Source: Siphonodentalium dalli (Eukaryota > Mollusca > Scaphopoda > Gadilida > Siphonodentaliidae). Taken from it: a stretch of 64,000 bases of DNA. The stretch is taken from assembly GCA_032622095.1 (NCBI GenBank), contig CP136062.1, positions 62,001 to 126,000 of the forward strand, read 5' to 3'. The stretch's first letter is position 1; every line of letters starts with the position of its first letter. Below are positions 29,191 to 63,051 of this stretch, in pieces. The translations under genes were made by a program, and so were the position numbers. The notes beneath the pieces were generated by a model. It ran no database searches, had not been told where the DNA came from, and saw nothing but the letters and a program-made list of their open reading frames with translations.

Positions 29191-29590
29191 GTAAATATTA
29201 TATATATTGAGGGAATCACTCCCCCACCCCTATATATGATATGTTGGGAGCGGTGGATTATACTCGAGTATCATCTCATTTATACAGGATCCGGATGTTA
29301 CATATTCCATTCTCCTTTCTACCCATATACAAAGGTAAATATTATATATATTGAGAGAATCACTCCCCTCCATATATGATATGTTGGGAGCGGTGGAGTG
29401 CACTCGATTATCGTCTCATTTATACAGGATCTGGATGTTACATATTCCATTCTCCTTTCTGCCCATATACAAAGGTAAATATTATATATACTGAGAGAAT
29501 CACTCCCCCTACATATGATATGTTAATTGGGAGCGGTGTAGTGAACTCGATTATCATCTCATTTATGCATGATTTGGAGGTTACATATTG
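29094..29590 (+). repeat. Tandem duplication (144 and 140 bp) of the AMOP-1 exon 3' half with splice donor
   Basis: Copies of TGTTGGGAGCGGTGGA...CATATACAAAGGTAAATATT end (exon edge) at 29190, 29334 and 29474. A fourth, decayed copy starts near 29520 with an AATT insertion and no recognisable donor. Copies 2 and 3 lack the CCATGT that encodes Pro-Cys of the CPC motif. The intronic part ATTATATATATTGAG(G/A)GAATCACTCCCC is duplicated too. Confidence 0.92.
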
Positions 29591-30761: not shown

Positions 30762-30917
30762 TATGAGAATGAGATCGTGATGAGAATTATCTTTCTTTGT
30801 TTGTAGGCATATTGCTATCGGATTGAGATTCTGATTAGAAGTGCTCCTGGAGCTGGTGGTCTTATTACATGCTATGAGAATGAGATCGTGATTAGAGTTA
30901 TCTTTCTTTGTTTGTTT
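30762..30917 (+). repeat. Echo of the AMOP-2 exon 5' end with its splice acceptor (copy a)
   Basis: TATGAGAATGAGATCGTGAT plus TTCTTTGTTTGTAG and the exon start GCATATTGCTATCGG to TTATTACA (exon-like part 30807-30869) match 35173-35284. A second copy of the intronic part follows directly (30870-30917) but loses the AG. The exon-like part is open and reads as ILIRSAPGAGGLIT like the true exon, but the second Cys pair is changed (CC to YC). No donor follows, so it is a broken partial exon. Confidence 0.88.
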
Positions 30918-31622: not shown

Positions 31623-31700
31623 GTAATTGTAGGCATGTTGTTATCGGATTGAGATTCTGATTAGAAGTGCTCCTGGAGCTGGTGGTCTTATTACACAAGA
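31623..31700 (+). repeat. Echo of the AMOP-2 exon 5' end with acceptor AG (copy b)
   Basis: Following AATTGTAG at 31632, the exon-like part 31633-31695 (GCATGTTGTTATCGG... to TTATTACA) keeps the CC motif and the frame ILIRSAPGAGGLIT. It then diverges into a stop after four codons. Unlike copy a, the upstream intron part beyond TTGTAG is not conserved. Copies a and b are closer to each other (RIEILI) than to the true exon (QNEILI). Confidence 0.85.
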
Positions 31701-35221: not shown

Positions 35222-35429
35222 GCATGTTGCTATCAGAATGAGATTCTAATTAGAAGTGCTCCTGGAGCTGGTGGTCTTATTACACGAAATCCAATGTTTG
35301 ACCGAAATGGATGGATGCAAAACGATGTCATTCCTAAAGAAAACTGCTGCGAGAAATCCAACAACTGCCGCCTGTACTACCAGGTGCGACCAATCGGGTG
35401 GTGTTATCGCCGACCAACTTTCAGAATCA
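35222..35429 (+). CDS. Internal exon, C-terminal half of the AMOP domain
   Basis: 208 nt. Acceptor TGTGTTTGTAG, donor ATCA|GTAAGT. Begins in phase 0 with A-C-C-Y-Q, then ILIRSAPGAGGLITRNPMF, ENCCEKSNNCRLYYQVRP and GWCYRRPTFRI. It ends in phase 1. The order 'CCY-x(3)-LI-x(4)-GGx... CC-x(2)-S-x-x-C-x-x-Y-x-x-RP-x(3)-C' is the classic C-terminal half of AMOP. In Mesh, MUC4 and SUSD2 the VWD domain follows within a few residues; here too the spare A joins TT of the VWD exon to give an Ile codon. This is the most recognisable exon of the gene. The 5' side (with acceptor) and the 3' side (with donor) are both duplicated in neighbouring intron DNA. Confidence 0.88.
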
Positions 35430-35840
35430 GTAAGTCAGTATTGTGTCGTGTAATCTGCAACCAACTTTCAGAATCAGTAAGTCAGTATTGTGTCGTGTAA
35501 TCTCCAACCAACTTTCAGAATCAGTAAGTCAGTATTGTGTCGTGTAATCTCCAACCAACTTTCAGAATCAGTAAGTCTCCAACCAACTTTCAGAATCAGT
35601 AAGTCAGTATTGTGTCGTGTAATCTCCAACCAACTTTCAGAATCAGTAAGTCAGTATTGTGTCGTGTAATCTCCAACCAACTTTCAGAATCAGTAAGTCA
35701 GTATTGTGTCGTGTAATCTCCAACCAACTTTCAGAATCAGTAAGTCAGTATTGTGTCGTGTAATCTCCAACCAACTTTCAGAATCAGTAAGTCAGTATTG
35801 TGTCGTGTAATCTCCAACCAACTTTCAGAATATCAAAATC
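35414..35840 (+). repeat. 47-bp tandem repeat made of the AMOP-2 exon end and its splice donor
   Basis: CCAACTTTCAGAATCAGTAA occurs at 35414 (the true exon end), 35461, 35508, 35555, 35583, 35630, 35677, 35724 and 35771, with a partial copy at 35818. Spacing is 47 bp except for one shortened 28-bp unit. Each unit holds 16 nt of exon, the full donor GTAAGT and ~25 nt of intron. Each also contains CTTTCAG|AATCA|GTAAGT, which mimics a 5-nt micro-exon with acceptor and donor. Confidence 0.95.
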
Positions 35841-37502: not shown

Positions 37503-38240
37503 ATTGTATACCAGTACTCTAAAATGCGACTAATGATCGGTCAATCTGAGATAATGGCGAAACACAAAAATTATCAGATGCGATGCCGATCATATCGACA
37601 CCACAGACATTATTGAAGGAGACAAAGCTGTCATATTGACGAAAACAAATACGTCTGAAAAATACGGTGACAATGACGAAAAATTTATGAAAACTTGCAA
37701 TGTTATGGAATGTGATAAAATTATGACGAAAACACTGCTCATTTATTTTTTCCATATACGAAAATCATTTTGACATGACCCCTAATAAAATAGCATCTAT
37801 TACACAACATACTTGTATTCATCACAGTGAAGCGACTGTTTGGTACATCTATATACCAATTAACCCTTACACGGGAAGGTAGTACGAAAAATGGAAAAAC
37901 TACCTTCGACATCAATGGATAGAATTTACATTTGTTGATGAATTCATACGCTAGCAAAGAACACGTTATGTATAACACGACGGAGTGAGCTACTTCGCTT
38001 TCATTTCCATATACGATATGACTGTACGTTGAACCTGTATAAATGCTGCACTGAACACGACGCTGATTTATTATAAGCTTAAAGTAGACTCGGTATTTAC
38101 AAAAATAATTTCTATTTCCGCTGATTTATTCCATATAATCGGGATTATTTTGTATAAAGATGTAGGACTAGACACAAGGAATGTATTTGTGTGCTAAAAT
38201 ATTTCCACTTCTGATCAACATAACGAGGTAACAGATTGGT
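37503..38240. other. Intron sequence without recognised features
   Basis: AT-rich, non-repetitive, up to the edge of the VWD array. Short open frames on both strands are not recognised. Confidence 0.5.
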
Positions 38241-41200
38241 GTAGATAGATACTCATTTAATGATCTCATTTATTAATATTACAGTTGTATTGTGGGGTGA
38301 TCCACATATCGAGACGACAGATGGACGTATATACTCATTTAACGATCTCATGTATTAATATTACAGTTGTATTGTGGGGTGATCCACATATCGAGACGAC
38401 AGATGGACGTAGATACTCATTTAACGGTCTCATGTATTAATATTACAGTTGTGTTGTGGGGCGATCCACATATCGAGACGACAGATGGACGTAGATACTC
38501 ATTTAATGATCTCATGTATTAATATTACAGTTGTATTGTGGGGTGATCCACATATCGAGACGACAGATGGACGTAGATACTCATTTAATGATCTCATGTA
38601 TTATTATTACAGTTGTATTGTGGGGTGATCCACATATCGAGACGACAGATGGACGTAGATACTCATTTAATGATCTCATGTATTAATATTACAGTTGTAT
38701 TGTGGGGTGATACACATATCGAGTCGACAGATGGACGTAGATACTCATTTAGTGATCTCATGTATTAAAATTACAGTTGTATTATGGGATGATCCACATA
38801 TCGAGACGACATATGGACGTAGATACTCATTTAATGATCTCATGTATTAATATTACAGTTGTATTATGGGGTGATCCACATATCGAGACGACAGATGGAC
38901 GTAGATACTCATTTAATGATCTCATGTATTAATATTACAGTTGTATTGTGGGGTGATCCACATATCGAGTCGACAGATGGCTTAGATACTCATTTAACGG
39001 TCTCATGTATTATTACAGTTGTATTGTGGGGTGATCCACATATCGAGACGACAGATGGACGTAGATACTCATTTAATGATCTCATGTATTAATATTACAG
39101 TTGTATTGTGGTGTGATCCACATATCGAGACGACAGATGGACGTAGATACTCATTTAATGATCTCATGTATTAATATTACAGTTGTATTGTGGGGTGATC
39201 GACATGTCGAGACGACAGATGGACGTAGATACTCATTTAATGATCTCATGTATTAATATTACAGTTGTATTGTGGGGTGATCCACATATCGAGTCGACAG
39301 ATGGACGTAGATACTCATTTAATGATCTCATGTATTATTATTACAGTTGTATTGTGGGGTGATACACATATCGAGACGACAGATGGACGTAGATACTTAT
39401 TTACAGTCCCATGTACTAATATTACAGTTGTATTGTGGGGTGATCCACATATCGAGACGACAGATGGACGTAGATATTCATTTAACGGTCTCATGTATTA
39501 TTATTACAGTTGTATTGTGGGGTGATCCACATATCGAGACGACAGATGGACGTAGATACTCATTTAATGATCTCATGTATTAATATTACAGTTGTATTGT
39601 GGGGTGATCCACATATCGAGACGACAGATGGACGTAGCTACTCATTTAATGATCTCATGTATTATTACAGTTGTATTGTGGGGTGATCCACATATCGAGA
39701 CGACAGATGGACGTATATACTCATTTAATTATCTCATGTATTAATATTACAGTTGTATTGTGGGGTGATCCACACATCGAGACGACAGATGGACGTAGAT
39801 ACTCATTTAACGATCTCATGTATTAATATTACAGTTGTATTGTGGGGTGATCCACATATCGAGTCGACAGATGGACTTAGATACTCATTTAATGATCTCA
39901 TGTATTATTACAGTTGTATTGTGGGGTGATCCACATATCGAGACGACAGATGGACGTAAATATTCATTTAATGATCTCATGTATTAATATTACAGTTGTA
40001 TTGCGGGGTGATCCACATATCGAGACGACAGATGGACGTAGATATTCATTTAATGATCTCATGTATTAATATTACAGTTGTATTGTGGGGTGATCCACTT
40101 ATCGAGACGACAGATGGACGTAGATACTCATTTAACGGTCTCATGTATTAATATTACAGTTGAATTGTGGGTTGATCCACATATCGAGACGACAGATGGA
40201 CGTAGATACTCATTTAATGATCTCATGTATTAATATTACAGTTGTGTTGTGGGGTGATCCACATATCGAGTCGACAGATGGACGTAGATACTCATTTAAC
40301 GGTCTCATGTATTATTACAGTTGTATTGTGGGGTGATCCACATATCGAGACGACAGATGGACGTAGATACTCATTTAATGATCTCATGTATTAATATTAC
40401 AGTTGTATTGTGGGGTGATCCACATATCGAGACGACAGATGGACGTAGATACTCATTTAATGATCTCATGTATTAATATTACAGTTGTATTGTGGGGTGA
40501 TCCACATATCGAGACGACAGATGGACGTAGATACTCATTTAATGATCTCATGTATTAATATTACAGTTGTATTGTGGGGTGATCCACATATCGAGACGAC
40601 AGATGGACGTAGATACTCATTTAATGATCTCATGTATTAATATTACAGTTGTATTGTGGGGTGATCCACATATCGAGTCGACAGATGGACGTAGATACTC
40701 ATTTAATGATCTCATGTATTATTATTACAGTTGTATTGTGGGTGATCCACATATCGAGACGACAGATGGACGTAGATACTTATTTACAGTCCCATGTACT
40801 AATATTACAGTTGTATTGTGGGGTGATCCACATATCGAGACGACAGATGGACGTAGATATTCATTTAACGGTCTCATGTATTATTATTACAGTTGTATTG
40901 TGGGGTGATCCACATATCGAGACGACAGATGGACGTAGATACTCATTTAATGATCTCATGTATTAATATTACAGTTGTATTGTGGGGTGATCCACATATC
41001 GAGACGACAGATGGACGTAGCTACTCATTTAATGATCTCATGTATTATTACAGTTGTATTGTGGGGTGATCCACATATCGAGACGACAGATGGACGTATA
41101 TACTCATTTAATTATCTCATGTATTAATATTACAGTTGTATTGTGGGGTGATCCACACATCGAGACGACAGATGGACGTAGATACTCATTTAATGATCTC

Positions 41201-44200
41201 ATGTATTATTATTACAGTTGTATTGTGGTGTGATCCACATATCGAGACGACAGATGGACGTAGATACTCATTTAACGATCTCATGTATTATTATTACAGT
41301 TGTATTGTGGGGTGGTCCACATATCGAGACGACAGATGGACGTAGATACTCATTTAATGATCTCATGTATTATTATTACAGTTGTATTGTGGGGTGATCC
41401 ACATATCGAGACGACATATGGACGTAGATACTCATTTAATGGTCTCATGTATTAATATAACAGTTGTATTGTGGGGTGATCCACATATCGAGACGACAGA
41501 TGGACGTAGATTCTCATTTAATGATCTCATGTATTAATATTACAGTTGTATTGTGGGGTGATCCACATATCGAGTCGACAGATGGACGTAGATACTCATG
41601 TAATGATCTCATGTATTATTATTACAGTTGTTTTGTGGGGTGATCCACATATCGAAACGACAGATGGACGTAGATACTTATTTACAGTCCCATGTATTAT
41701 TACAGTTGTATTGTGGGGTGATCCACATATCGAGTCGACAGATGGACGTAGATACTCATGTAATGATCTCATGTATTATTATTACAGTTGTATTGTGGGG
41801 TGATCCACATATCGAGACGACAGATGGACGTAGCTACTCATTTAATGATCTCATGTATTATTACAGTTGTATTGTGGGTTGATCCACATATCGAGACGAC
41901 AGATGGACGTAGATATTCATTTAACGGTCTCATGTATTATTTTTACAGTTGTATTGTGGGGTGATCCACATATCGAGACGACAGATGGACGTAGATACTT
42001 ATTTACTGTCTCGTGTATTATTATTACAGTTGTATTGTGGGGTGATCCACATATCGAGACGACAGATGGACGTAGATACTCATTTAATGATCTCATGTAT
42101 TATTATTACAGTTGTATTGTGGGGTGATCCACATATCGAGACGACAGATGGACGTAGATACTCATTTAATGATCTCATGTATTATTATTACAGTTGTATT
42201 GTGGTGTGATCCACATATCGAGACGACAGATGGACGTAGATACTCATTTAACGATCTCATGTATTATTATTACAGTTGTATTGTGGGGTGGTCCACATAT
42301 CGAGACGACAGATGGACGTAGATACTCATTTAATGATCTCATGTATTATTATTACAGTTGTATTGTGGGGTGATCCACATATCGAGACGACATATGGACG
42401 TAGATACTCATTTAATGGTCTCATGTATTAATATAACAGTTGTATTGTGGGGTGATCCACATATCGAGACGACAGATGGACGTAGATTCTCATTTAATGA
42501 TCTCATGTATTAATATTACAGTTGTATTGTGGGGTGATCCACATATCGAGTCGACAGATGGACGTAGATACTCATGTAATGATCTCATGTATTATTATTA
42601 CAGTTGTTTTGTGGGGTGATCCACATATCGAAACGACAGATGGACGTAGATACTTATTTACAGTCCCATGTATTATTACAGTTGTATTGTGGGGTGATCC
42701 ACATATCGAGTCGACAGATGGACGTAGATACTCATGTAATGATCTCATGTATTATTATTACAGTTGTATTGTGGGGTGATCCACATATCGAGACGACAGA
42801 TGGACGTAGCTACTCATTTAATGATCTCATGTATTATTACAGTTGTATTGTGGGGTGATCCACATATCGAGACGACAGATGGACGTAGATACTCATTTAA
42901 TGATCTCATGTATTAATATTACAGTTGTATTGTGGGGTGATCCACATATCGAGACGACAGATGGACGTAGATACTCATTTAATGATCTCATGTATTAATA
43001 TTACAGTTGTATTGTGGGGTGATCCACATATCGAGTCGACAGATGGACGTAGATACTCATTTAATGATCTCATGTATTATTATTACAGTTGTATTGTGGG
43101 GTGATCCACATATCGAGACGACAGATGGACGTAGATACTCATTTAATGATCCCATGTACTAATATTACAGTTGTATTGTGGGGTGATCCACACATCGAGA
43201 CGACAGATGGACGTAGATATTCATTTAACGGTCTCATGTATTATTTTTACAGTTGTATTGTGGGGTGATCCAAATATCGAGACGACAGATGGACGTAGAT
43301 ACTCATTTAATGATCTCATGTATTAATATTACAGTTGTATTGTGGGGTGATCCACATATCGAGACGACAGATGGACGTAGCTACTCATTTAATGATCTCA
43401 TGTATTATTACAGTTGTATTGTGGGGTGATCCACATATCGATACGACAGATGGACGTATATACTCATTTAATTATCTCATGTATTAATATTACAGTTGTA
43501 TTGTGGGGTGATCCACACATCGAGACGACAGATGGGCGTAGATACTCATTTAACGATCTCATGTATTAATATTACAGTTGTATTGTGGGGTGATCCACAT
43601 ATCGAGTCGACAAATCGACTTAGATACTCATTTAATGATCTCATGTATTATTACAGTTGAATTGTGGGGTGATCCACATATCGAGACGACAGATGGACGT
43701 AAATATTCATTTAATGATCTCATGTATTAATATTACAGTTGTATTGCGGGGTGATCCACATATCGAGACGACAGATGGACTTAGAAACTCATTTAATGAT
43801 CTCATGTTTTATTATTACAGTTGTATTGTGGGGCGATCCACATATCGAGACGACAGATGGACGTAGATACTCATTTAATGATCTCATGTATTATTATTAC
43901 AGTTGTATTGTGGGGTGATCCACATATCGAGACGACAGATGGACGTAGATACTCATTTAATGATCTCATGTATTATTATTACAGTTGTATTGTGGGGTGA
44001 TCCACATATCGAGACGACAGATGGACGTAGATACTTATTTACTGTCTCATGTACTAATATTACAGTTGTATTGTGGGGTGATCCACATATCGAGACGACA
44101 GATGGACGTAGATACTTATTTACTGTCTCATGTACTAATATTACAGTTGTATTGTGGGGTGATCCACATATCGAGACGACAGATGGACTTAGATACTCAT

Positions 44201-47200
44201 TTAACGGTCTCATGTATTAATATTACAGTTGTATTGTGGGGTGATCCACATATCGAGACGACAGATGGACGTAGAACTTATTTACTGTCTCGTGTTCTAA
44301 TATTACAGTTGTATTGTGGGGTTATTCACATATCGAGACGACAGATGGACTTAGATACTCATTTAACGGTCTCATGTATTAATATTACAGTTGTATTGTG
44401 GGGTGATCCACATATCGAGACGACAGATGGACGTAGATACATATTTACTGTCTCGTGTACTTATATTACAGTTGTATTGTGGGGTGATCCACATATCGAG
44501 ACGACAGATGGACGTAGATACCCATTGAATGATCTCATGTATTAATATTACAGTTGTGTTGTGGGGTGATCCACATATCGAGTCGACAGATGGACGTAGA
44601 TACTCATTTAACGGTCTCATGTATTATTACAGTTGTATTGTGGGGTGATCCACATATCGAGACGACAGATGGACGTAGATACTCATTTAATGATCTCATG
44701 TATTAATATTACAGTTGTATTGTGGGGTGATCCACATATCGAGACAACAGATGGACGTAGATACTCATTTAATGATCTCATGTATTATTATTACAGTTGT
44801 ATTGTGGGGTGATCCACATATCGAGTCGACATATGGACGTAGATACTCATTTAATGATCTCATGTATTATTATTATAGTTGTATTGTGGGGTGATCCACA
44901 TATCTAGACGACAGATGGACGTAGATACTTATTTACTGTCTCATGTACTAATATTACAGTTGTATTGTGGGGTGATCCACATATCGAGTCGACATATGGA
45001 CGTAGATACTCATTTAATGATCTCATGTATTATTATTATAGTTGTATTGTGGGGTGATCCACATATCTAGACGACAGATGGACGTAGATACTTATTTACT
45101 GTCTCATGTACTAATATTACAGTTGTATTGTGGGGTGATCCACATATCGAGACGACAGATGGACTTAGATACTCATTTAACGGTCTCATGTATTAATATT
45201 ACAGTTGTATTGTGGGGTGATCCACATATCGAGACGACAGATGGACGTAGATACTTATTTAATGATCTCATGTATTATTATTACAGTTGTATTGTGGGTT
45301 GATCCACATATCGAGACGACAGATGGACGTAGATACTCATTTAATGATCTCATGTATTATTATTACAGTTGTATTGTGGTGTGATCCACATATCGAGACG
45401 ACAGATGGACGTAGATACTCATTTAACGATCTCATGTATTATTATTACAGTTGTATTGTGGGGTGGTCCACATATCGAGACGACAGATGGACGTAGATAC
45501 TCATTTAATGATCTCATGTATTATTATTACAGTTGTATTGTGGGGTGATCCACATATCGAGACGACATATGGACGTAGATACTCATTTAATGGTCTCATG
45601 TATTAATATAACAGTTGTATTGTGGGGTGATCCACATATCGAGACGACAGATGGACGTAGATTCTCATTTAATGATCTCATGTATTAATATTACAGTTGT
45701 ATTGTGGGGTGATCCACATATCGAGTCGACAGATGGACGTAGATACTCATGTAATGATCTCATGTATTATTATTACAGTTGTTTTGTGGGGTGATCCACA
45801 TATCGAAACGACAGATGGACGTAGATACTTATTTACAGTCCCATGTACTAATATTACAGTTGTATTGTGGGGTGATCCACATATCGAGACGACAGATGGA
45901 CGTAGCTACTCATTTAATGATCTCATGTATTATTACAGTTGTATTGTGGGGTGATCCACATATCGAGACGACAGATGGACGTAGATACTCATTTAATGAT
46001 CTCATGTATTAATATTACAGTTGTATTGTGGGGTGATCCACATATCGAGACGACAGATGGACGTAGATACTCATTTAATGATCTCATGTATTAATATTAC
46101 AGTTGTATTGTGGGGTGATCCACATATCGAGTCGACAGATGGACGTAGATACTCATTTAATGATCTCATGTATTATTATTACAGTTGTATTGTGGGGTGA
46201 TCCACATATCGAGACGACAGATGGACGTAGATACTCATTTAATGATCCCATGTACTAATATTACAGTTGTATTGTGGGGTGATCCACACATCGAGACGAC
46301 AGATGGACGTAGATATTCATTTAACGGTCTCATGTATTATTTTTACAGTTGTATTGTGGGGTGATCCAAATATCGAGACGACAGATGGACGTAGATACTC
46401 ATTTAATGATCTCATGTATTAATATTACAGTTGTATTGTGGGGTGATCCACATATCGAGACGACAGATGGACGTAGCTACTCATTTAATGATCTCATGTA
46501 TTATTACAGTTGTATTGTGGGGTGATCCACATATCGATACGACAGATGGACGTATATACTCATTTAATTATCTCATGTATTAATATTACAGTTGTATTGT
46601 GGGGTGATCCACACATCGAGACGACAGATGGGCGTAGATACTCATTTAACGATCTCATGTATTAATATTACAGTTGTATTGTGGGGTGATCCACATATCG
46701 AGTCGACAAATCGACTTAGATACTCATTTAATGATCTCATGTATTATTACAGTTGAATTGTGGGGTGATCCACATATCGAGACGACAGATGGACGTAAAT
46801 ATTCATTTAATGATCTCATGTATTAATATTACAGTTGTATTGCGGGGTGATCCACATATCGAGACGACAGATGGACTTAGAAACTCATTTAATGATCTCA
46901 TGTTTTATTATTACAGTTGTATTGTGGGGCGATCCACATATCGAGACGACAGATGGACGTAGATACTCATTTAATGATCTCATGTATTATTATTACAGTT
47001 GTATTGTGGGGTGATCCACATATCGAGACGACAGATGGACGTAGATACTCATTTAATGATCTCATGTATTATTATTACAGTTGTATTGTGGGGTGATCCA
47101 CATATCGAGACGACAGATGGACGTAGATACTTATTTACTGTCTCATGTACTAATATTACAGTTGTATTGTGGGGTGATCCACATATCGAGACGACAGATG

Positions 47201-50200
47201 GACGTAGATACTTATTTACTGTCTCATGTACTAATATTACAGTTGTATTGTGGGGTGATCCACATATCGAGACGACAGATGGACTTAGATACTCATTTAA
47301 CGGTCTCATGTATTAATATTACAGTTGTATTGTGGGGTGATCCACATATCGAGACGACAGATGGACGTAGAACTTATTTACTGTCTCGTGTTCTAATATT
47401 ACAGTTGTATTGTGGGGTTATTCACATATCGAGACGACAGATGGACTTAGATACTCATTTAACGGTCTCATGTATTAATATTACAGTTGTATTGTGGGGT
47501 GATCCACATATCGAGACGACAGATGGACGTAGATACATATTTACTGTCTCGTGTACTTATATTACAGTTGTATTGTGGGGTGATCCACATATCGAGACGA
47601 CAGATGGACGTAGATACTCATTTAATGATCTCATGTATTAATATTACAGTTGTGTTGTGGGGTGATCCACATATCGAGTCGACAGATGGACGTAGATACT
47701 CATTTAACGGTCTCATGTATTATTACAGTTGTATTGTGGGGTGATCCACATATCGAGACGACAGATGGACGTAGATACTCATTTAATGATCTCATGTATT
47801 AATATTACAGTTGTATTGTGGGGTGATCCACATATCGAGACGACAGATGGACGTAGATACTCATTTAATTATCTCATGTATTATTATTACAGTTGTATTG
47901 TGGGGTGATCCACATATCGAGTCGACATATGGACTTAGATACTCATTTAATAATCTCATGTATTATTATTACAGTTGTATTGTGGGGCGATCCACATATC
48001 GAGACGACAGATGGACGTAGATACTCATTTAATGATCTCATGTATTATTATTATAGTTGTATTGTGGGGTGATCCACATATCTAGACGACAGATGGACGT
48101 AGATACTTATTTACTGTCTCATGTACTAATATTACAGTTGTATTGTGGGGTGATCCACATATCGAGACGACAGATGGACTTAGATACTCATTTAACGGTC
48201 TCATGTATTAATATTACAGTTGTATTGTGGGGTGATCCACATATCGAGACGACAGATGGACGTAGATACTTATTTAATGATCTCATGTATTATTATTACA
48301 GTTGTATTGTGGGTTGATCCACATATCGAGACGACAGATGGACGTAGAACTTATTTACTGTCTCGTGTTCTAATATTACAGTTGTATTGTGGGGTGATTC
48401 ACATATCGAGACGACAGATGGACTTAGATACTCATTTAACGGTCTCATGTATTAATATTACAGTTGTATTGTGGGGTGATCCACATATCGAGACGACAGA
48501 TGGACGTAGATACTTATTTACTGTCTCGTGTACTTATATTACAGTTGTATTGTGGGGTGATCCACATATCGAGACGACAGATGGACGTAGATACTCATTT
48601 AATGATCTCATGTATTATTATTACAGTTGTATTGTGGGGTGATCCACATATCGAGACGACAGATGGACGTAGATACTCATTTAATGATCTCATGTATTAT
48701 TATTACAGTTGTATTGTGGGGTGATCCACATATCGAGACGACAGATGGACGTAGATACTCATTTAATGATCTCATGTATTATTATTACAGTTGTATTGTG
48801 GGGTGATCCACATATCGAGACGACAGATGGACGTAGATACTCATTTAACGATCTCATGTATTATTATTACAGTTGTATTGTGGGGTGATCCACATATCGA
48901 GACGACAGATGGACGTAGCTACTCATTTAATGATCTCATGTATTATTACAGTTGTATTGTGGGGTGATCCACATATCGATACGACAGATGGACGTATATA
49001 CTCATTTAATTATCTCATGTATTAATATTACAGTTGTATTGTGGGGTGATCCACACATCGAGACGACAGATGGGCGTAGATACATATTTAACGATCTCAT
49101 GTATTAATATTACAGTTGTATTGTGGGGTGATCCACATATCGAGTCGACAAATGGACTTAGATACTCATTTAATGATCTCATGTATTATTACAGTTGAAT
49201 TGTGGGGTGATCCACATATCGAGACGACAGATGGACGTAAATATTCATTTAATGATCTCATGTATTAATATTACAGTTGTATTGCGGGGTGATCCACATA
49301 TCGAGACGACAGATGGACGTAGATATTCATTTAATGATCTCATGTATTAATATTACAGTTGTATTGTGGGGTGATCCACTTATCGAGACGACAGATGGAC
49401 GTAGATACTCATTTAATGATCTCATGTATTAATATTACAGTTGTGTTGTGGGGTGATCCACATATCGAGTCGACAGATGGACGTAGATACTCATTTAACG
49501 GTCTCATGTATTATTACAGTTGTTTTGTGGGGTGATGCACATATCGAGACGACAGATGGACGTAGATACTCATTTAATGATCTCATGTATTAATATTACA
49601 GTTGTATTGTGGGGTGATCCACATATCGAGACGACAGATGGACGTAGATATTCATTTAATGATCTCATGTATTAATATTACAGTTGTATTGTGGGGTGAT
49701 CCACATATCGAGTCGACATATGGACTTAGATACTCATTTAATAATCTCATGTATTATTATTACAGTTGTATTGTGGGGCGATCCACATATCGAGACGACA
49801 GATGGACGTAGATACTCATTTAATGATCTCATGTATTATTATTATAGTTGTATTGTGGGGTGATCCACATATCTAGACGACAGATGGACGTAGATACTTA
49901 TTTACTGTCTCATGTACTAATATTACAGTTGTATTGTGGGGTGATCCACATATCGAGACGACAGATGGACTTAGATACTCATTTAACGGTCTCATGTATT
50001 AATATTACAGTTGTATTGTGGGGTGATCCACATATCGAGACGACAGATGGACGTAGATACTTATTTAATGATCTCATGTATTATTATTACAGTTGTATTG
50101 TGGGTTGATCCACATATCGAGACGACAGATGGACGTAGATACTCATTTAATGATCTCATGTATTATTATTACAGTTGTATTGTGGTGTGATCCACATATC

Positions 50201-53200
50201 GAGACGACAGATGGACGTAGATACTCATTTAACGATCTCATGTATTATTATTACAGTTGTATTGTGGGGTGGTCCACATATCGAGACGACAGATGGACGT
50301 AGATACTCATTTAATGATCTCATGTATTATTATTACAGTTGTATTGTGGGGTGATCCACATATCGAGACGACATATGGACGTAGATACTCATTTAATGGT
50401 CTCATGTATTAATATAACAGTTGTATTGTGGGGTGATCCACATATCGAGACGACAGATGGACGTAGATTCTCATTTAATGATCTCATGTATTAATATTAC
50501 AGTTGTATTGTGGGGTGATCCACATATCGAGTCGACAGATGGACGTAGATACTCATGTAATGATCTCATGTATTATTATTACAGTTGTTTTGTGGGGTGA
50601 TCCACATATCGAAACGACAGATGGACGTAGATACTTATTTACAGTCCCATGTACTAATATTACAGTTGTATTGTGGGGTGATCCACATATCGAGACGACA
50701 GATGGACGTAGCTACTCATTTAATGATCTCATGTATTATTACAGTTGTATTGTGGGGTGATCCACATATCGAGACGACAGATGGACGTAGATACTCATTA
50801 AATGATCTCATGTATTAATATTACAGTTGTATTGTGGGGTGATCCACATATCGAGACGACAGATGGACGTAGATACTCATTTAATGATCTCATGTATTAA
50901 TATTACAGTTGTATTGTGGGGTGATCCACATATCGAGTCGACAGATGGACGTAGATACTCATTTAATGATCTCATGTATTATTATTACAGTTGTATTGTG
51001 GAGTGATTCACATATCGAGACGACAGATGGACGTAGATACTCATTTAATGATCTCATGTATTATTATTACAGTTGTATTGTGGGTTGATCCACATATCGA
51101 GACGACAGATGGACGTAGATACTCATTTAATGATCTCATGTATTATTATTACAGTTGTATTGTGGTGTGATCCACATATCGAGACGACAGATGGACGTAG
51201 ATACTCATTTAACGATCTCATGTATTATTATTACAGTTGTATTGTGGGGTGGTCCACATATCGAGACGACAGATGGACGTAGATACTCATTTAATGATCT
51301 CATGTATTATTATTACAGTTGTATTGTGGGGTGATCCACATATCGAGACGACATATGGACGTAGATACTCATTTAATGGTCTCATGTATTAATATAACAG
51401 TTGTATTGTGGGGTGATCCACATATCGAGACGACAGATGGACGTAGATTCTCATTTAATGATCTCATGTATTAATATTACAGTTGTATTGTGGGGTGATC
51501 CACATATCGAGTCGACAGATGGACGTAGATACTCATGTAATGATCTCATGTATTATTATTACAGTTGTTTTGTGGGGTGATCCACATATCGAAACGACAG
51601 ATGGACGTAGATACTTATTTACAGTCCCATGTACTAATATTACAGTTGTATTGTGGGGTGATCCACATATCGAGACGACAGATGGACGTAGCTACTCATT
51701 TAATGATCTCATGTATTATTACAGTTGTATTGTGGGGTGATCCACATATCGAGACGACAGATGGACGTAGATACTCATTAAATGATCTCATGTATTAATA
51801 TTACAGTTGTATTGTGGGGTGATCCACATATCGAGACGACAGATGGACGTAGATACTCATTTAATGATCTCATGTATTAATATTACAGTTGTATTGTGGG
51901 GTGATCCACATATCGAGTCGACAGATGGACGTAGATACTCATTTAATGATCTCATGTATTATTATTACAGTTGTATTGTGGGGTGATCCACATATCGAGA
52001 CGACAGATGGACGTAGATACTCATTTAATGATCCCATGTACTAATATTACAGTTGTATTGTGGGGTGATCCACACATCGAGACGACAGATGGACGTAGAT
52101 ATTCATTTAACGGTCTCATGTATTATTTTTACAGTTGTATTGTGGGGTGATCCAAATATCGAGACGACAGATGGACGTAGATACTCATTTAATGATCTCA
52201 TGTATTAATATTACAGTTGTATTGTGGGGTGATCCACATATCGAGACGACAGATGGACGTAGCTACTCATTTAATGATCTCATGTATTATTACAGTTGTA
52301 TTGTGGGGTGATCCACATATCGATACGACAGATGGACGTATATACTCATTTAATTATCTCATGTATTAATATTACAGTTGTATTGTGGGGTGATCCACAC
52401 ATCGAGACGACAGATGGGCGTAGATACTCATTTAACGATCTCATGTATTAATATTACAGTTGTATTGTGGGGTGATCCACATATCGAGTCGACAAATCGA
52501 CTTAGATACTCATTTAATGATCTCATGTATTATTACAGTTGAATTGTGGGGTGATCCACATATCGAGACGACAGATGGACGTAAATATTCATTTAATGAT
52601 CTCATGTATTAATATTACAGTTGTATTGCGGGGTGATCCACATATCGAGACGACAGATGGACTTAGAAACTCATTTAATGATCTCATGTTTTATTATTAC
52701 AGTTGTATTGTGGGGCGATCCACATATCGAGACGACAGATGGACGTAGATACTCATTTAATGATCTCATGTATTATTATTACAGTTGTATTGTGGGGTGA
52801 TCCACATATCGAGACGACAGATGGACGTAGATACTCATTTAATGATCTCATGTATTATTATTACAGTTGTATTGTGGGGTGATCCACATATCGAGACGAC
52901 AGATGGACGTAGATACTTATTTACTGTCTCATGTACTAATATTACAGTTGTATTGTGGGGTGATCCACATATCGAGACGACAGATGGACGTAGATACTTA
53001 TTTACTGTCTCATGTACTAATATTACAGTTGTATTGTGGGGTGATCCACATATCGAGACGACAGATGGACTTAGATACTCATTTAACGGTCTCATGTATT
53101 AATATTACAGTTGTATTGTGGGGTGATCCACATATCGAGACGACAGATGGACGTAGAACTTATTTACTGTCTCGTGTTCTAATATTACAGTTGTATTGTG

Positions 53201-56200
53201 GGGTTATTCACATATCGAGACGACAGATGGACTTAGATACTCATTTAACGGTCTCATGTATTAATATTACAGTTGTATTGTGGGGTGATCCACATATCGA
53301 GACTACAGATGGACGTAGATACATATTTACTGTCTCGTGTACTTATATTACAGTTGTATTGTGGGGTGATCCACATATCGAGACGACAGATGGACGTAGA
53401 TACTCATTTAATGATCTCATGTATTAATATTACAGTTGTGTTGTGGGGTGATCCACATATCGAGTCGACAGATGGACGTAGATACTCATTTAACGGTCTC
53501 ATGTATTATTACAGTTGTATTGTGGGGTGATCCACATATCGAGACGACAGATGGACGTAGATACTCATTTAATGATCTCATGTATTAATATTACAGTTGT
53601 ATTGTGGGGTGATCCACATATCGAGACGACAGATGGACGTAGATACTCATTTAATGATCTCATGTATTATTATTACAGTTGTATTGTGGGGTGATCCACA
53701 TATCGAGTCGACATATGGACTTAGATACTCATTTAATAATCTCATGTATTATTATTACAGTTGTATTGTGGGGCGATCCACATATCGAGACGACAGATGG
53801 ACGTAGATACTCATTTAATGATCTCATGTATTATTATTATAGTTGTATTGTGGGGTGATCCACATATCTAGACGACAGATGGACGTAGATACTTATTTAC
53901 TGTCTCATGTACTAATATTACAGTTGTATTGTGGGGTGATCCACATATCGAGACGACAGATGGACTTAGATACTCATTTAACGGTCTCATGTATTAATAT
54001 TACAGTTGTATTGTGGGGTGATCCACATATCGAGACGACAGATGGACGTAGATACTTATTTAATGATATCATGTATTATTATTACAGTTGTATTGTGGGT
54101 TGATCCACATATCGAGACGACAGATGGACGTAGAACTTATTTACTGTCTCGTGTTCTAATATTACAGTTGTATTGTGGGGTGATTCACATATCGAGACGA
54201 CAGATGGACTTAGATACTCATTTAACGGTCTCATGTATTAATATTACAGTTGTATTGTGGGGTGATCCACATATCGAGACGACAGATGGACGTAGATACT
54301 TATTTACTGTCTCGTGTACTTATATTACAGTTGTATTGTGGGGTGATCCACATATCGAGACGACAGATGGACGTAGATACTCATTTAATGATCTCATGTA
54401 TTATTATTACAGTTGTATTGTGGGGTGATCCACATATCGAGACGACAGATGGACGTAGATACTTATTTAATGATCTCATGTATTATTATTACAGTTGTAT
54501 TGTGGGGTGATCCACGTATCGAGACGACAGATGGACGTAGATACTCATTTAATGATCTCATGTATTATTATTACAGTTGTATTGTGGGGTGATCCACATA
54601 TCGAGACGACAGATGGACGTAGATACTCATTTAACGATCTCATGTATTATTATTACAGTTGTATTGTGGGGTGATCCACATATCGAGACGACAGATGGAC
54701 GTAGCTACTCATTTAATGATCTCATGTATTATTACAGTTGTATTGTGGGGTGATCCACATATCGATACGACAGATGGACGTATATACTCATTTAATTATC
54801 TCATGTATTAATATTACAGTTGTATTGTGGGGTGATCCACACATCGAGACGACAGATGGGCGTAGATACATATTTAACGATCTCATGTATTAATATTACA
54901 GTTGTATTGTGGGGTGATCCACATATCGAGTCGACAAATGGACTTAGATACTCATTTAATGATCTCATGTATTATTACAGTTGAATTGTGGGGTGATCCA
55001 CAAATCGAGACGACAGATGGACGTAAATATTCATTTAATGATCTCATGTATTAATATTACAGTTGTATTGCGGGGTGATCCACATATCGAGACGACAGAT
55101 GGACGTAGATATTCATTTAATGATCTCATGTATTAATATTACAGTTGTATTGTGGGGTGATCCACTTATCGAGACGACAGATGGACGTAGATACTCATTT
55201 AATGATCTCATGTATTAATATTACAGTTGTGTTGTGGGGTGATCCACATATCGAGTCGACAGATGGACGTAGATACTCATTTAACGGTCTCATGTATTAT
55301 TACAGTTGTATTGTGGGGTGATGCACATATCGAGACGACAGATGGACGTAGATACTCATTTAATGATCTCATGTATTAATATTACAGTTGTATTGTGGGG
55401 TGATCCACATATCGAGACGACAGATGGACGTAGATACTCATTTAATGATCTCATGTATTATTATTACAGTTGTATTGTGGGGTGATCCACATATCGAGTC
55501 GACATATGGACTTAGATACTCATTTAATGATCTCATGTTTTATTATTACAGTTGTATTGTGGGGTGATCCACATATCGAGTCGACATATGGACTTAGATA
55601 CTCATTTAATGATCTCATGTTTTATTATTACAGTTGTATTGTGGGGCGATCCACATATCGAGACGACAGATGGACGTAGATACTCATTTTATGATCTCAT
55701 GTATTATTATTACAGTTGTATTGTGGGGTGATCCACATATCGAGACGACAGATGGACGTAGATACTTATTTACTGTCTCATGTACTAATATTACAGTTGT
55801 ATTGTGGGGTGATCCACATATCGAGACGACAGATGGACTTAGATACTCATTTAACGGTCTCATGTATTAATATTACAGTTGTATTGTGGGGTGATCCACA
55901 TATCGAGACGACAGATGGACGTAGATACTTATTTAATGATCTCATGTATTATTATTACAGTTGTATTGTGGGGTGATCCACATATCGAGACGACAGATGG
56001 ACGTAGAACTTATTTACTGTCTCGTGTTCTAATATTACAGTTGTATTGTGGGGTGATTCACATATCGAGACGACAGATGGACTTAGATACTCATTTTATC
56101 GGTCTCATGTATTAATATTACAGTTGTATTGTGGGGTGATCCACATATCGAGACGACAGATGGACGTAGATACTTATTAACTGTCTCGTGTACTTATATT

Positions 56201-59200
56201 ACAGTTGTATTGTGGGGTGATCCACATATCGAGACGACAGATGGACGTAGATACTCATTTAATGATCTCATGTATTAATATTACAGTTGTGTTGTGGGGT
56301 GATCCACATATCGAGTCGACAGATGGACGTAGATACTCATTTAATGATCTCATGTATTATTATTACAGTTGTATTGTGGGGTGATCCACATATCGAGTCG
56401 ACATATGGACTTAGATACTCATTTAATGATCTCATGTATTATTATTACAGTTGTATTGTGGGGTGATCCACATATCGAGTCGACATATGGACTTAGATAC
56501 TCATTTAATGATCTCATGTTTTATTATTACAGTTGTATTGTGGAGCGATCCACATATCGAGACGACAGATGGACGTAGATACTCATTTAATGATCTCATG
56601 TATTATTATTACAGTTGTATTGTGGGGTGATCCACATATCGAGACGACAGATGGACGTAGATACTTATTTAATGGTCTCATGTATTATTATTACAGTTGT
56701 ATTGTGGGGTGATCCACATATCGAGACGACAGATGGACGTAGATACTTATTTACTGTCTCATGTACTAATATTACAGTTGTATTGTGGGGTGATCCACAT
56801 ATCGAGACGACAGATGGACTTAGATACTCATTTAACGGTCTCATGTATTAATATTACAGTTGTATTGTGGGGTGATCCACATATCGAGACGACAGATGGA
56901 CGTAGATACTTATTTAATGATCTCATGTATTATTATTACAGTTGTATTGTGGGGTGATCCACATATCGAGACGACAGATGGACGTAGAACTTATTTACTG
57001 TCTCGTGTTCTAATATTACAGTTGTATTGTGGGGTGATTCACATATCGAGACGACAGATGGACTTAGATACTCATTTAACGGTCTCATGTATTAATATTA
57101 CAGTTGTATTGTGGGGTGATCCACATATCGAGACGACAGATGGACGTAGATCCTTATTTACTGTCTCGTGTACTTATATTACAGTTGTATTGTGGGGTGA
57201 TCCACATATCGAGACGACAGATGGACGTAGATACTCATTTAATGATCTCATGTATTATTATTACAGTTGTATTGTGGGGTGATCCACATATCGAGACGAC
57301 AGATGGACGTAGATACTCATTTAATGATCTCATGTATTATTATTACAGTTGTATTGTGGGGTGATCCACATATCGAGACGACAGATGGACGTAGATACTC
57401 ATTTAATGATCTCATGTATTATTATTACAGTTGTATTGTGGGGTGATCCACATATCGAGACGACAGATGGACGTAGATACTCATTTAACGATCTCATGTA
57501 TTATTATTACAGTTGTATTGTGGGGTGATCCACATATCGAGACGACAGATGGACGTAGATACTCATTTAATGATCTCATGTATTATTATTACAGTTGTAT
57601 TGTGGGGTGATCCACATATCGAGACGACATATAGACGTAGATACTCATTTAATGATCTCATGTATTAATATAACAGTTGTATCGTGGGGTGATCCACATA
57701 TCGAGACGACAGATGGACGTAGATACTAATTTAATGATCTCATGTATTATTACAGTTGTATTGTGGGGTGATCCACATATCGAGACGTCAGATGGACGTA
57801 GATACTCATTTAATGGTCTCATGTATTAATATTACAGTTGTATTGTGGGGTGATCCACATATCGAGACGACAGATGGACGTAGATATTCATTTAATGGTC
57901 TCATGTATTATTATTACAGTTGTATTGTGGGTTGATCCACATATCGAGACGACAGATGGACGTAGCTACTCATTTAATGATCTCATGTATTATTACAGTT
58001 GTATTGTGGGGTGATCCACATATCGAGACGACAGATGGACGTAGATACTCATTTAATGATCTCATGTATTAATATTACAGTTGTATTGTGGGGTGATCCA
58101 CATATCGAGACGACAGATGGACGTATATACTCATTTAATGATCTCATGTATTAATATAACAGTTGTATTGTGGGGTGATCCACATATCGAGACGACATAT
58201 GGACGTAGATACTCATTTAATGATCTCATGCATTATTATTACAGTTGTATTGTGGGGTGATCCACATATCGAGACGACAGATGGACGTAGCTACTCATTT
58301 AACGGCCTTATGTATTAATATTACAGTTGTATTGTGGGGTGATCCACATATCGAGTCGACAGATGGACGTAGCTACTCATTTAACGGTCTTATGTATTAA
58401 TATTACAGTTGTATTGTGGGGTGATCCACATATCGAGACGACAGATTGACGTAGATACTCATTTAACGGTCTCATGTATTAATATTACAGTTGTATTGTG
58501 GGGTGATCCACATATCGAGACGACAGATGGACGTAGATACTCATTTAACGGTCTTATGTATTAATATTACAGTTGTATTGTGGTGTGATCCACATATCGA
58601 GACGACATATGGACGTAGCTACTCATTTAATGATCTCATGTATTAATATTACAGTTGTATTGTGGGGTGATCCACATATCGAGACGACAGATGGACGTAG
58701 ATACTCATTTAACGGCCTCATGTATTATTACTGTTGTATTGTGGGGTGATCCACATATCGAGACGACAGATGGACGTAGATACTCATTTAATGATCTCAT
58801 GTATTATTATTACAGTTGTATTGTGGGGTGATCCACATATCGAGACGACAGATGGACGTAGATACTCATTTAATGGTCTCATGTGTTAATATTACAGTTG
58901 TATTGTGGGGTGATCCACATATCGAGACGACAGATGGACGTAGATACTCATTTAATGATCTCATGTATTATTATTACAGTTGTATTGTGGGGTGATCCAC
59001 ATATGGAGACGACAGATGGACGTAGATACTCATTTAACGATCTCATGTATTATTATTACAGTTGTATTGTGGGGTGATCCACATATCGAGACGACAGATG
59101 GACGTAGATACTCATTTAATGATCTCATGTATTATTATTACAGTTGTATTGTGGGGTGATCCACATATGGAGACGACAGATGGACGTAGATACTCATTTA

Positions 59201-61514
59201 ACGGTCTCGTGTATTAATATTACAGTTGTATTGTGGGTTGATCCACATATCGAGACGACAGATGGACGTAGATACTCATTTAATGATCTCATGTATTATT
59301 ACAGTTGTATTGTGGGGTGATCCACATATCGAGACGACAGATGGACGTAGATACTCATTTAATGATCTCATGTATTAATATTACAGTTGTATTGTGGGGT
59401 GATCCAAATATCGAGACGACAGATGGACGTAGATACTCATTTAATGATCTCATGTATTATTATTACAGTTGTATTGTGGGGTGATCCACATATGGAGACG
59501 ACAGATGGACGTAGATACTCATTTAACGATCTCATGTATTATTATTACAGTTGTATTGTGGGGTGATCCACATATCGAGACGACAGATGGACGTAGATAC
59601 TCATTTAATGGTCTCATGTGTTAATATTACAGTTGTATTGTGGGGTGATCCACATATCGAGATGACAGATGGACGTAGATATTCATTTAACGGGGTCTCA
59701 TGTATTATTATTACAGTTGTATTGTGGGTTGATCCACATATCAAGACGACAGATGGACGTAGCTACTCATTTAATGATCTCATGTATTATTACAGTTGTA
59801 TTGTGGGGTGATCCACATATCGAGACGACAGATGGACGTAGATACTCATTTAATGATCTCATGTATTAATATTACAGTTGTATTGTGGGGTGATCCACAT
59901 ATCGAGACGACAGATGGACGTAGATACTCATTTAACGGTCTCATGTATTAATATTACAGTTGTATTGTGGGGTGATCCACATATCGAGACGACAGATGGA
60001 CGTAGATACTCATTTAACGATCTCATGTATTATTATTACAGTTGTATTGTGGGGTGATCCACATATCGAGACGACAGATGGACGTAGATACTCATTTAAT
60101 GGTCTCATGTATTAATATTACAGTTGTATTGTGGGGTGATCCACATATCGAGACGACAGATGGACGTAGATATTCATTTAACGGGGTCTCATGTATTATT
60201 ATTACAGTTGTATTGTGGGTTGATCCACATATCAAGATGACAGATGGGCGTAGCTACTCATTTAATGATCTCATGTATTATTACAGTTGTATTGTGGGGT
60301 GCTCCACATATCGAGACGACAGATGGACGTAGATACTCATTTAATGATCTCATGTATTAATATTACAGTTGTATTGTGGGGTGATCCACATATCGAGACG
60401 ACAGATGGACGTAGATACTCATTTAACGGTCTCATGTATTAATATTACAGTTGTATTGTGGGGTGATCCACATATCGAGACGACAGATGGACGTATATAC
60501 TCATTTAATGATCTCATGTATTAATATAACAGTTGTATTGTGGGGTGATCCACATATCGAGACGACATATGGACGTAGATATTCATTTAATGATCTCATG
60601 CATTATTATTACAGTTGTATTGTGGGGTGATCCACATATCGAGTCGACAGATGGACGTAGCTACTCATTTAACGGCCTTATGTATTAATATTACAGTTGT
60701 ATTGTGGGGTGATCCACATATCGAGACGACAGATGGACGTAGATACTCATTTAACGGTCTCATGTATTAATATTACAGTTGTATTGTGGGGTGATCCACA
60801 TATCGAGACGACAGATGGACGTAGATACTCATTTAACGGTCTTATGTATTAATATTACAGTTGTATTGTGGTGTGATCCACATATCGAGACGACAGATGG
60901 ACGTAGCTACTCATTTAATGCTCTCATGTATTAATATTACAGTTGTATTGTGGGGTGATCCACATATCGAGACGACAGATGGACGTAGATACTCATTTAA
61001 CGGTCTCATGTATTATTACAGTTGTATTGTGGGGTGATCCACATATCGAGACGACAGATGGACGTAGATACTCATTTAATGATCTCATGTATTATTTATT
61101 ACAGTTGTATTGTGGGGTGATCCACATATCGAGACGACAGATGGACGTAAATATTCATTTAATGATCTCATGTATTAATATTACAGTTGTATTGTGGGGT
61201 GATCCACATATCGAGACGACAGATGGACGTAGATATTCATTTAATGAGCTCATGTATTAATATTACAGTTGTATTGTGGGGTGATCCACTTATCGAGACG
61301 ACAGATGGACGTAGATACTCATTTAACGGTCTCATGTATTAATATTACAGTTGTATTGTGGGATGATCCACATATCGAGACGACAGATGGACGTAGATAT
61401 TCATTTAATGATCTCATGTATTAATATTACAGTTGTATTGTGAGGTGATCCACATATCGAGACGACAGATGGACGTAGATACTCATTTAATGATCTCATG
61501 TATTAATATTACAG
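38241..61514 (+). repeat. ~280-copy array of an 82-bp unit: splice acceptor plus start of the VWD exon
   Basis: Starts at about 38241 inside a unit. The first acceptor-like AG is at 38284, the second at 38366 (spacing 82), and the last is the real one at 61514. 23,230 bp divided by 82 gives about 283 units; some are 79 bp (TATTATTACAG variant) and a few 81-85. Each unit has TATTAATATTACAG or TATTATTATTACAG, then TTGTATTGTGGGGTGATCCA and on to GACGTAGATACTCATTTAA(T/C)G. This encodes VLWGDPHIETTDGRRYSFN, the start of the VWD exon. About 20 nt of intron-like DNA (ATCTCATGTATTAATATTAC) follow and end in the next AG. No unit except the last is followed by the rest of the exon or by a strong donor. 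Groups of variant units recur in the same order at offsets of about 976-980, 1384, 3096, 4806 and 5786 bp, so the array has higher-order structure. Confidence 0.97.
43657..49400 (+). repeat. Higher-order blocks in the VWD array (3096- and 5786-bp offsets)
   Basis: The ordered variant series at 43657-44545 (GAATTGTGGGGTGAT start, AAATATTCATTTAATG, TTAGAAACTCA, then CTTATTTACTGTCTCATGTA units and a GTAGAACTTATTT unit) recurs at 46753-47641 and again at 52539-53427. The longer stretch 46753 to about 49400 recurs at 52539 to about 55190. Only isolated substitutions separate the copies, for example the CCCATTGAATG variant at 44521. Confidence 0.9.
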
Positions 61515-61757
61515 TTGTATTGTGGGGTGATCCACATATCGAGACGACAGATGGACGTAGATACTCATTTAATGGTTTCGGCGAGTATCATCTCCTTAAA
61601 GTAGACAACAGCACGACTCAGATTGATATCCAAGCGAGAACAGGGTTTGCGCTGTCGAAGAACAACACTAAGGTTAATGCCACAGTGTTTACGGCGTGTG
61701 CCGGAAGCGATAATAACGGAGCCAGTTTCCACGTGGAACTCTCATCAAATAGAACAT
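61515..61757 (+). CDS. Internal exon, start of the von Willebrand factor D domain
   Basis: 243 nt. The acceptor TATTAATATTACAG is that of the last array unit; the donor is ACAT|GTGAGT. Entering in phase 1, the peptide reads IVLWGDPHIETTDGRRYSFN and then GFGEYHLLKV, with QARTGFALSKNNTKVNATVF and ending SSNRT in phase 1. 'GDPH-x(2)-T-x-DG-x-x-Y-x-FNG-x-GEY-x-LL' is the hallmark start of the VWD domain in MUC4, SUSD2 and Mesh. The GDPH tetrapeptide is the known Asp-Pro autocleavage site in several mucin VWD domains; whether it cleaves here is unknown. N-glycosylation sequons NST, NNT, NAT and NRT are visible. The first ~62 nt are shared with the upstream array; everything after TTTAATGG is unique in the window. 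This sequence makes the domain call firm. Confidence 0.92.
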
Positions 61758-62100
61758 GTGAGTTAATTAGTTAGTTTATGATGCCGATATTTTGTCATTT
61801 GGTAACTACTAACTTTTTTTATTTTTTTGGGTGGTAAAATTGAATTTATTTGGTAAAATATGTTTCAGTGTAAATTTTATTCTTTTGTATGTATTTTTGG
61901 GGAGGGAGTGGGAGGGGGTCATCGAGGGGTAAATGATTTTAGGTATAAATTAATTATTTTATATGTATTTGGAGGGGATTTTGAGGGGTGTACCATTTGT
62001 AGGTATAAACTATATAAATTCATTTAAATGCATTTTTGTGGGGGTTGAATGTTTTTGGTAAAATCAGTTCTTTTGAGTACATATTGAGCGATCATTCAAG
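61758..62100. repeat. Degenerate T- and G-rich repeats in the intron after the VWD-1 exon
   Basis: The phrases TTTTATATGTATTTGGAGGG, GAGGGGT(A/G)TA and AGGTATAAA(C/T)TA recur two to three times with a period near 80-90 bp (about 61875, 61955, 62030). Old tandem repeat, no coding signal. Confidence 0.6.
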
Positions 62101-62471
62101 CATTTAACATGTCATTTTATTTGTTCATCAGCGATGATTATCTATGTGATTGGGCATGGTATTTAAATGTCATTTTATTTTTTCATCAGCGATGGTTATT
62201 CATGACATTTAATGTGTAGTTTAATTTTTCCACAGGGATTGTTATCTATGTGATCGGTTATGGCATTTAATATCTCATTTTATTTTGTCATCAGCGATCG
62301 TTATTCATGACTTTTGATGCGTCAATTGTTTTCCTGCAGCCATAATTGTTGCTTTGTGGCTACATATAACATCTCATTTTATGTTTTTTCTTCAACAATG
62401 CTCAATTTATGTTTTTTCTTTGGCAATGTTTATTCATGACATTTACCATCTCGTTTTATGTTTTTCCTCAG
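62101..62471 (+). repeat. Echoes of the VWD-2 exon acceptor and first exon bases
   Basis: Acceptor-like TCATCAG or CCACAG followed by CGATGATTATCTATGTGAT-type sequence occurs with exon-like starts at 62132, 62190, 62236, 62295 and 62340. Weaker copies without AG lie near 62396 and 62424. Spacings alternate 58, 46, 59, 45, so the basic unit is a ~104-bp dimer. The true exon (62472) begins CGATGATAATCTTTGTGAATG, which is clearly related. Copies have diverged much more than those of the VWD-1 array. Confidence 0.8.
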
Positions 62472-62600
62472 CGATGATAATCTTTGTGAATGACCAGGAC
62501 AAAACAACAAATTTCTACAATAGTCAGGATTTTAATTACACTGAAACAAACATCATGGCGAAGCGCGTTAACGATTCCATCATCATGGTGCTTAATTCAG
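62472..62600 (+). CDS. Internal exon, second part of the VWD domain
   Basis: 129 nt. Acceptor TTTTTCCTCAG, donor TCAG|GTAAAG. Entering in phase 1 it completes a Ser codon. It reads MIIFVNDQDKTTNFYNSQDF, then NYTETNIMAKRVNDSIIMVLNS, ending in phase 1. In MUC4 and SUSD2 the corresponding stretch is 'L-x-V-x-L-N-x-Q...F... (hydrophobic) ... S-V-I-M-L-x-S-G', which this pattern resembles. Sequons NYT and NDS are visible. The rest of the VWD domain, and any sushi or membrane segment, must lie beyond the window. The exon call depends on frame continuity with the VWD-1 exon and on good splice sites. Confidence 0.72.
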
Positions 62601-63050
62601 GTAAAGTTACTATACTGCGTAATTGTGCTGGTACTGGAATCAGTCCATCTGTGTGTCCTTCTGTCCATGGATGCAACTTTGTCCGAGCTTATATTGTTTA
62701 ATTGTTCAGTGTATTTTTTTTAAACTTGGCACAGATATTTAATACCATGGGAATTGGTATACTTGGGAACATGACGTCCGTCTGACTTTTTTTAGTGGAG
62801 TTATTCCCCTTTTTCAATCTTTTATTCAAATTGAAGAATCTATATCTTCTTGTATTCTATAAGATAGGATACTACTTCAACTGACCATTTATTTTAGGAA
62901 GAATAACATTTAAAAAATTAAATTCGTCCCCCCGCTCCCTGACAAGTTGCATGTAAATATAGCAATATATTTATATTGGACTAATATGCACTCCATATTT
63001 GGAAACAATTCTTTTGTTATCTTGGGATAGACGTGTCCTCCTAGAAAAGA
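62601..63050. other. Intron sequence without recognised features
   Basis: Starts with the donor GTAAAG. GAATCAGTCCATCTGTGTGT and AACTTGGCACAGATATTTAA resemble common invertebrate repeat phrases, but no element ends were found. Confidence 0.5.
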
Positions 63051-63051
63051 T

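Follow-up and report, generated by a model that had tools for sequence, protein, structure and literature searches.

How a gene can be spliced across an intron that carries hundreds of copies of its own terminal splice site is the question raised by a locus of the scaphopod Siphonodentalium dalli (assembly GCA_032622095.1). The window, i.e., the whole stretch of DNA that was analysed, comprises 64,000 nt (contig CP136062.1, positions 62,001 to 126,000 of the forward strand) and contains 0 N bases. Based on its letters, the original prediction had described ~280 tandem copies of an intron-exon boundary in front of an exon encoding a VWD domain, and had held that no class of such repeats was known.

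An acceptor array built from its host exon

TRF reported one single array with a period of 82 bp, 286.2 copies, 93% matches and 1% indels, and parsing yielded 286 units followed by a 17-bp tail, in line with the predicted copy number. The boundaries required adjustment: the start at 38241 had been placed 5 bp early, and the end given as 61514 becomes 61574 when the first 60 bp of the real exon are counted in. Unit lengths were 82 bp in 214, 79 bp in 31 and 81 bp in 27 of the 286 cases. Each unit joins 22 bp of intron end (ATCTCATGTATTAATATTACAG) to the first 60 bp of exon C (Table 1), which bears out the proposal of a unit in which the 3′ splice site is followed by the opening bases of the host gene's VWD exon, albeit with 60 rather than ~62 exonic bases. 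Alignment to the consensus showed the AG to be kept in 285/286 units, with the exact string CAGTT present in 280/286, and the last copy runs on through the remainder of exon C into the gtgagt donor. Traces of block copying are evident within the array, in that 21 consecutive units recur exactly at a lag of 38. A generic intronic satellite, whose unit would be unrelated to host exons, is ruled out, as 60 of the 82 bp are host exon.

Tandem repeats across exon-intron boundaries were named 'mirages' in the Adh3 gene of amphioxus, according to the available excerpts of PMC3087553. The array before exon C has the core property of this class, i.e., a tandem unit lying across an exon-intron boundary. 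It also retains a splice signal in many of its units (the AG mentioned above), and both 5′ and 3′ boundaries are hit in the window gene, namely two donors and two acceptors. The notion that no such class had been described is thereby contradicted. The same excerpts report mirages at the 5′ and 3′ boundaries of the amphioxus globin genes BflGb6 and BflGb9, where regular splicing is undisturbed, while PGBD5 and troponin C feature as further amphioxus cases in the portion available of PMC3902484. The exon C array is thus a mirage, a known but obscure kind of repeat, of a size far above that of the published cases consulted.

Table 1 Features of the window gene, its array and the background mirages
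Feature	Position	Strand	Remarks
Exon A	28953..29191	+	acceptor ttcag, donor gtaaat; frame open, splice dinucleotides present; matched in two paralogs on C7
Donor mirage of exon A	29097..29589	+	140-bp unit x3.5 (TRF); real end of the exon forms the first copy
Copy of exon B start	30807..30869	+	tgtag acceptor; 93.7% identity; 4.4 kb upstream of the real start
Second remote copy of exon B start	31633..31696	+	tgtag acceptor; 93.8% identity
Exon B	35222..35429	+	phase 0 start; 1 nt left over at end
Donor mirage of exon B	35401..35831	+	47-bp unit (TRF); ACCAACTTTCAGAATCA/GTAAGT in nine exact copies, of which the real donor is the first
Relic, older copy of exon C start	38212..38262	+	76.5% match; upstream of first array acceptor
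Giant acceptor mirage of exon C	38246..61574	+	286 units of ~82 bp; TRF and unit parsing
Exon C (VWD)	61515..61757	+	acceptor very probably the productive one; gtgagt (61758) as donor
Degenerate acceptor mirage of exon D	62094..62412	+	five copies, AG kept in 4/5
Exon D	62472..62600	+	frame carries on from exon C (T/CG ATG ATA)
L049			acceptor mirage, 2 copies
L079			donor mirage, degenerate
L080			acceptor mirage, 2 degenerate copies
L083, fn3 exon	C6:187833318-187834109		donor mirage, six or more 59-bp copies of the exon end with GTAAGT, extending past the examined piece
L103, sodium-channel exon	C4:83265046-83265765		acceptor mirage, three decayed decoys, AG in 2/3

The splice dinucleotides of exons A, B, C and D were checked in the window, and the reading frame runs from B through C to D, with exon B leaving 1 base, exon C opening with 2 and leaving 1, and exon D opening with CG. 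The joined exons matched the Pfam VWD domain (E 2.2e-6), and exons A-D joined gave no Pfam match to AMOP at E 0.1; we take exon A to hold an AMOP-like part, and exons A-C would then presumably read as AMOP-VWD. Four distant paralogs (L009-L012) possess a single acceptor before the VWD exon, at an intron position and phase identical to those of the window gene, and among 280 acceptors tested only 61515 gives an open frame. For these reasons, 61515 is, as judged by sequence comparison, very probably the real acceptor of exon C, and the last copy of the array the productive one, as had been proposed.

Paralogs, origin and turnover of the array

With exon C as query, a six-frame search retrieved four close copies of the gene, i.e., the one in the window, one on the minus strand at C2:14.09 Mb, and two at C7:714 kb and C7:599 kb. 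In the C2:14.09 Mb copy, the first array unit lies at 14153883 and exon C at 14090378, resulting in a span of 63,565 bp, or ~775 units as estimated by length. The sequence examined comprised 51.2 kb adjoining exon C and 2.6 kb at the far end, and two 250-bp spot samples from the middle were both array sequence. At least 22 of 625 units of this array have lost the AG. Each of the C7 copies has one exon C acceptor, so that copy number varies among the paralogs from 1 and 1 to 286 and ~775 acceptors. The same exon behind such different numbers of acceptors in one genome constitutes a natural series, which makes measurable how far exon definition overrides identical upstream 3′ splice sites and what mis-splicing costs.

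At C7:599 kb, it is the acceptor of exon B that has been amplified instead, in 111-bp units (x25.0 and x8.2). Overall, there are 34 matches to exon B, the last of which is the real exon; the array holds 31 exact acceptors, and 30 decoys reach a stop codon after 21-36 codons. By coordinates alone, repeats also lie near the distant VWD exons L011 and L012. An isolated ~100-bp piece of the 82-bp satellite, in its short TATTATTACAG variant, was located far from any array at C5:150536001-150536100 (L003).

The relic at the head of the window array reads TGATCAACATAACGAGG..AACAGATTGG..TAGATACTCATTTAATG. Local scores against exon C were 56 in the window, 57 at C7:714 kb and 41 at C7:599 kb, values reached by 0/500 shuffles in each, and of the four close paralogs, all tested by alignment, three carry the relic ahead of the acceptor. 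This argues that a direct repeat flanked the exon C junction already in their ancestor. Given the position of the relic upstream of the first array acceptor, an older junction duplication came before the array and left a direct repeat able to seed it. The tandem array may thus have grown from a segment straddling the junction of the intron and exon C: direct repeats flanking this junction would have given rise to tandem copies through unequal exchange or replication slippage, and block duplication would then have enlarged the array.

Between the window and C2:14.09 Mb, the flanking sequences are 95.9% identical in intron B-C (2,414 bp) and 98.5% identical in intron C-D, yet the two arrays have 13 unit types in common and no shared run of identical units exceeding 4. 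Array turnover is therefore much faster than point mutation. Within the window array, decoy variant types per site amounted to 1.25, 1.00 and 1.05 at codon positions 1, 2 and 3, a flat profile indicating that decoys are free of coding constraint.

Choice among identical acceptors

Over positions -22 to +60, ten decoys match the real site in every letter, and its 23-mer recurs in 99. It is only downstream, in the remaining part of exon C and its donor, that the real site and the identical decoys differ; if exon C is spliced as supposed, downstream context (exon definition) must hence select the real site. The donor motif GTRAGT was absent from the 23,269 bp of the window array, the first instance being that at 61758 after exon C, and was likewise absent from 51,122 bp of the paralogous array at C2:14.09 Mb; the looser, donor-like GT[AG]NGT occurs 12 times in the window array. 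All 279 decoys tested, namely those containing CAGTT, end in a stop codon within 3-113 codons.

Decoys, with no GTRAGT donor between them, would accordingly supply an AG but no exon, and U1 at the 61758 donor may help U2AF/U2 to settle on the closest upstream acceptor. A message spliced to a decoy would run into a stop codon and would probably be degraded. From these sequence features we infer exon definition to be the best explanation of acceptor choice. In the cis-competition of duplicated splice sites by Reed and Maniatis in 1986, exon sequence and proximity are said to decide among identical sites; there, two sites competed in a construct, whereas here there are hundreds, in a genome.

We assign a probability of roughly 0.74 to the following reading: the array is a giant mirage that arose by tandem duplication and is tolerated via exon definition, being most likely neutral ballast kept by tolerance and fast turnover and not a regulator. 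What would render it tolerable is that only the last copy leads on to the remainder of exon C and its donor. Selection against decoys was not seen in the unit alignment, where the AG is as invariant as the other constant columns; in small mirages elsewhere in the genome (Table 1), the decoy AG was lost in 1/1 (L049) and 1/3 (L103) cases.

Array growth would also be without splicing consequence if the gene copy were dead or weakly used, a reading that we regard as unlikely. The window and C2:14.09 Mb copies sit in repeat-rich DNA, and with 0 synonymous and 2 nonsynonymous changes between them in exons B+C, too few for a constraint test, constraint on these two copies specifically is not supported; dN/dS of exons B+C ranges from 0.21 to 0.41 across the five paralog pairs with a C7 member. 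However, the window copy keeps an open frame through exons B, C and D, which join without a shift; its B+C product equals in length those of C2:14.09 Mb and C7:714 kb, and that of C7:599 kb is one residue longer.

Still less credible, in our assessment, is a co-opted regulator, in which the array would provide a stock of poison acceptors or delay transcription and splicing, and so tune gene output. Stop codons reached from every decoy tested, well-kept acceptor strings (CAGTT as counted above) and the long arrays of both C2 copies would agree with such a role. Yet the C7 paralogs manage without an exon C array, array content differs between copies whose flanks are 96-98% identical, and constancy is not peculiar to the AG, which is matched by other unit columns in the window and is missing from at least 22 of 625 units in the paralogous array.

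Junction repeats elsewhere and relation to known systems

The exon C array is not the only junction repeat of the window gene (Table 1). Copies of the exon A end are located at 29241, 29381 and 29515, and the upstream copies of the exon D start score 48-74, as compared to a maximum of 42 among 200 shuffles. The exon B donor motif, repeated in the window, is single in the copies at C2:14.09 Mb, C7:714 kb and C7:599 kb. In a self-comparison test, a repeat crossed the junction in 11/13 family exons, the rows being paralogs that are not independent and represent five distinct junctions.

As a background sample, we inspected 35 exons each from fn3 and Ion_trans, two families unrelated to that of the window gene (70 exons in all); several of these exons share a gene, and their match edges only approximate the junctions. 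Junction-spanning tandem copies were found in at least five of the 70 (L049, L079, L080, L083 and L103). The best PDB match of L103 was a sodium channel (E 1.9e-21). Since at least 5/70 exons of unrelated families show such smaller mirages, the habit is genome-wide, with smaller cases common. Several further candidates were set aside: repeats at L099 and L101 are intronic, inspection of L022, L031 and L092 revealed no junction repeats, and the 74-76% matches at L020, L033 and L034 were taken as similar fn3 coding repeats. At L029, a repeat lies ~90 bp from the match edge.

TRF arrays with periods of 30-200 bp occupied 5.57% of 100,000 non-exon bases versus 0.59% of 23,220 exon-core bases. Mirages were present at no fewer than 5 of at most 140 background junctions (3.6%), versus the 5.57% of flanking bases in arrays, and targeting of repeats to junctions is rejected on present data. 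Because junctions are hit no more than intron DNA overall, mirages are most simply traced to ordinary tandem duplication that splicing tolerates. Plain neutrality does, though, leave the excess of junction repeats in the VWD gene family (11/13 versus at least 5/70) without explanation. We give little credence to a reading in which a genome-wide mirage process continually deposits decayed copies of exon starts and exon ends in introns, with the array turned into a working element here: its hundreds of identical acceptors would load and stall the splicing machinery until definition of the terminal exon releases the gene. If this were true, introns would grow by such a general route in a second animal lineage. 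Most improbable of all is an assembly artefact, with the array short or missing in the animal: assembly is difficult where blocks of as many as 21 units are identical, but a pure artefact would not produce differing array content at two C2 loci, an unrelated acceptor array in a C7 paralog and a lone ~100-bp fragment on C5.

Returning to the tolerated giant mirage, it resembles its amphioxus counterparts, as far as the available excerpts describe them, in spanning an intron-exon boundary and in carrying AG signals. In contrast, BflGb6 is reported there to have 6 and 3 units of 150-160 bp in two haplotypes (PMC3087553), compared with 286 and ~775 units of 82 bp in the exon C arrays, whose 23.3 kb and ~63.6 kb exceed the few-unit minisatellite size that serves as a loose criterion for mirages. 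Relative to the amphioxus cases consulted, satellite size is what is new; mirages of satellite size, or outside amphioxus, were not found in the literature searched, where most subscription papers were out of reach. Tandem duplication that takes in splice signals likewise underlies the Rogers model of intron gain and the potato RdRp case, as given in the available portion of PMC4974935; unlike there, no new intron is seen here, and an existing intron lengthens and leaves the exon as it was. With the gigantic introns of Drosophila kl-3 and kl-5 (PMC6508621), the locus has in common large satellite DNA within an intron of a coding gene; unlike the exon C array, the satellite unit in kl-3 and kl-5 carries no indication, in the excerpts available, of including a splice site of the host gene.

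Mirages thus occur in this 2.23-Gb genome (9 contigs), a sodium-channel exon included, and growth to satellite size is possible. In the same genome, molluscan haemocyanin (PF14830) and GFP (PF01353) had 0 matches each, in searches whose controls gave no hit either, and C1q had 10. They have been proposed as a path to new introns (PMC3087553, in excerpt), and the presence of relics in introns suggests decayed mirages to be one source of intron sequence.

Other tandem repeats accompany the gene copies. Positions 1-22035 of the window form a mosaic of 122-, 129-, 130- and 131-bp units, the order of which recurs in blocks of ~3-4 kb. An intronic array of 33-bp units (28175-28922, x22.7) stops ~30 bp short of the exon A acceptor and does not span the junction; a related array (x56) is present in the C7:714 kb paralog (L016 997-2710). 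The intron after exon D holds a TGTAGTCCGTAAATA array at 63050-63712, and a similar one lies 3′ of exon D at C2:14.09 Mb. Finally, ACAACAACT-rich repeats near the latter copy (L061 and L062; C2:14211001 and 14221001) would encode threonine runs.
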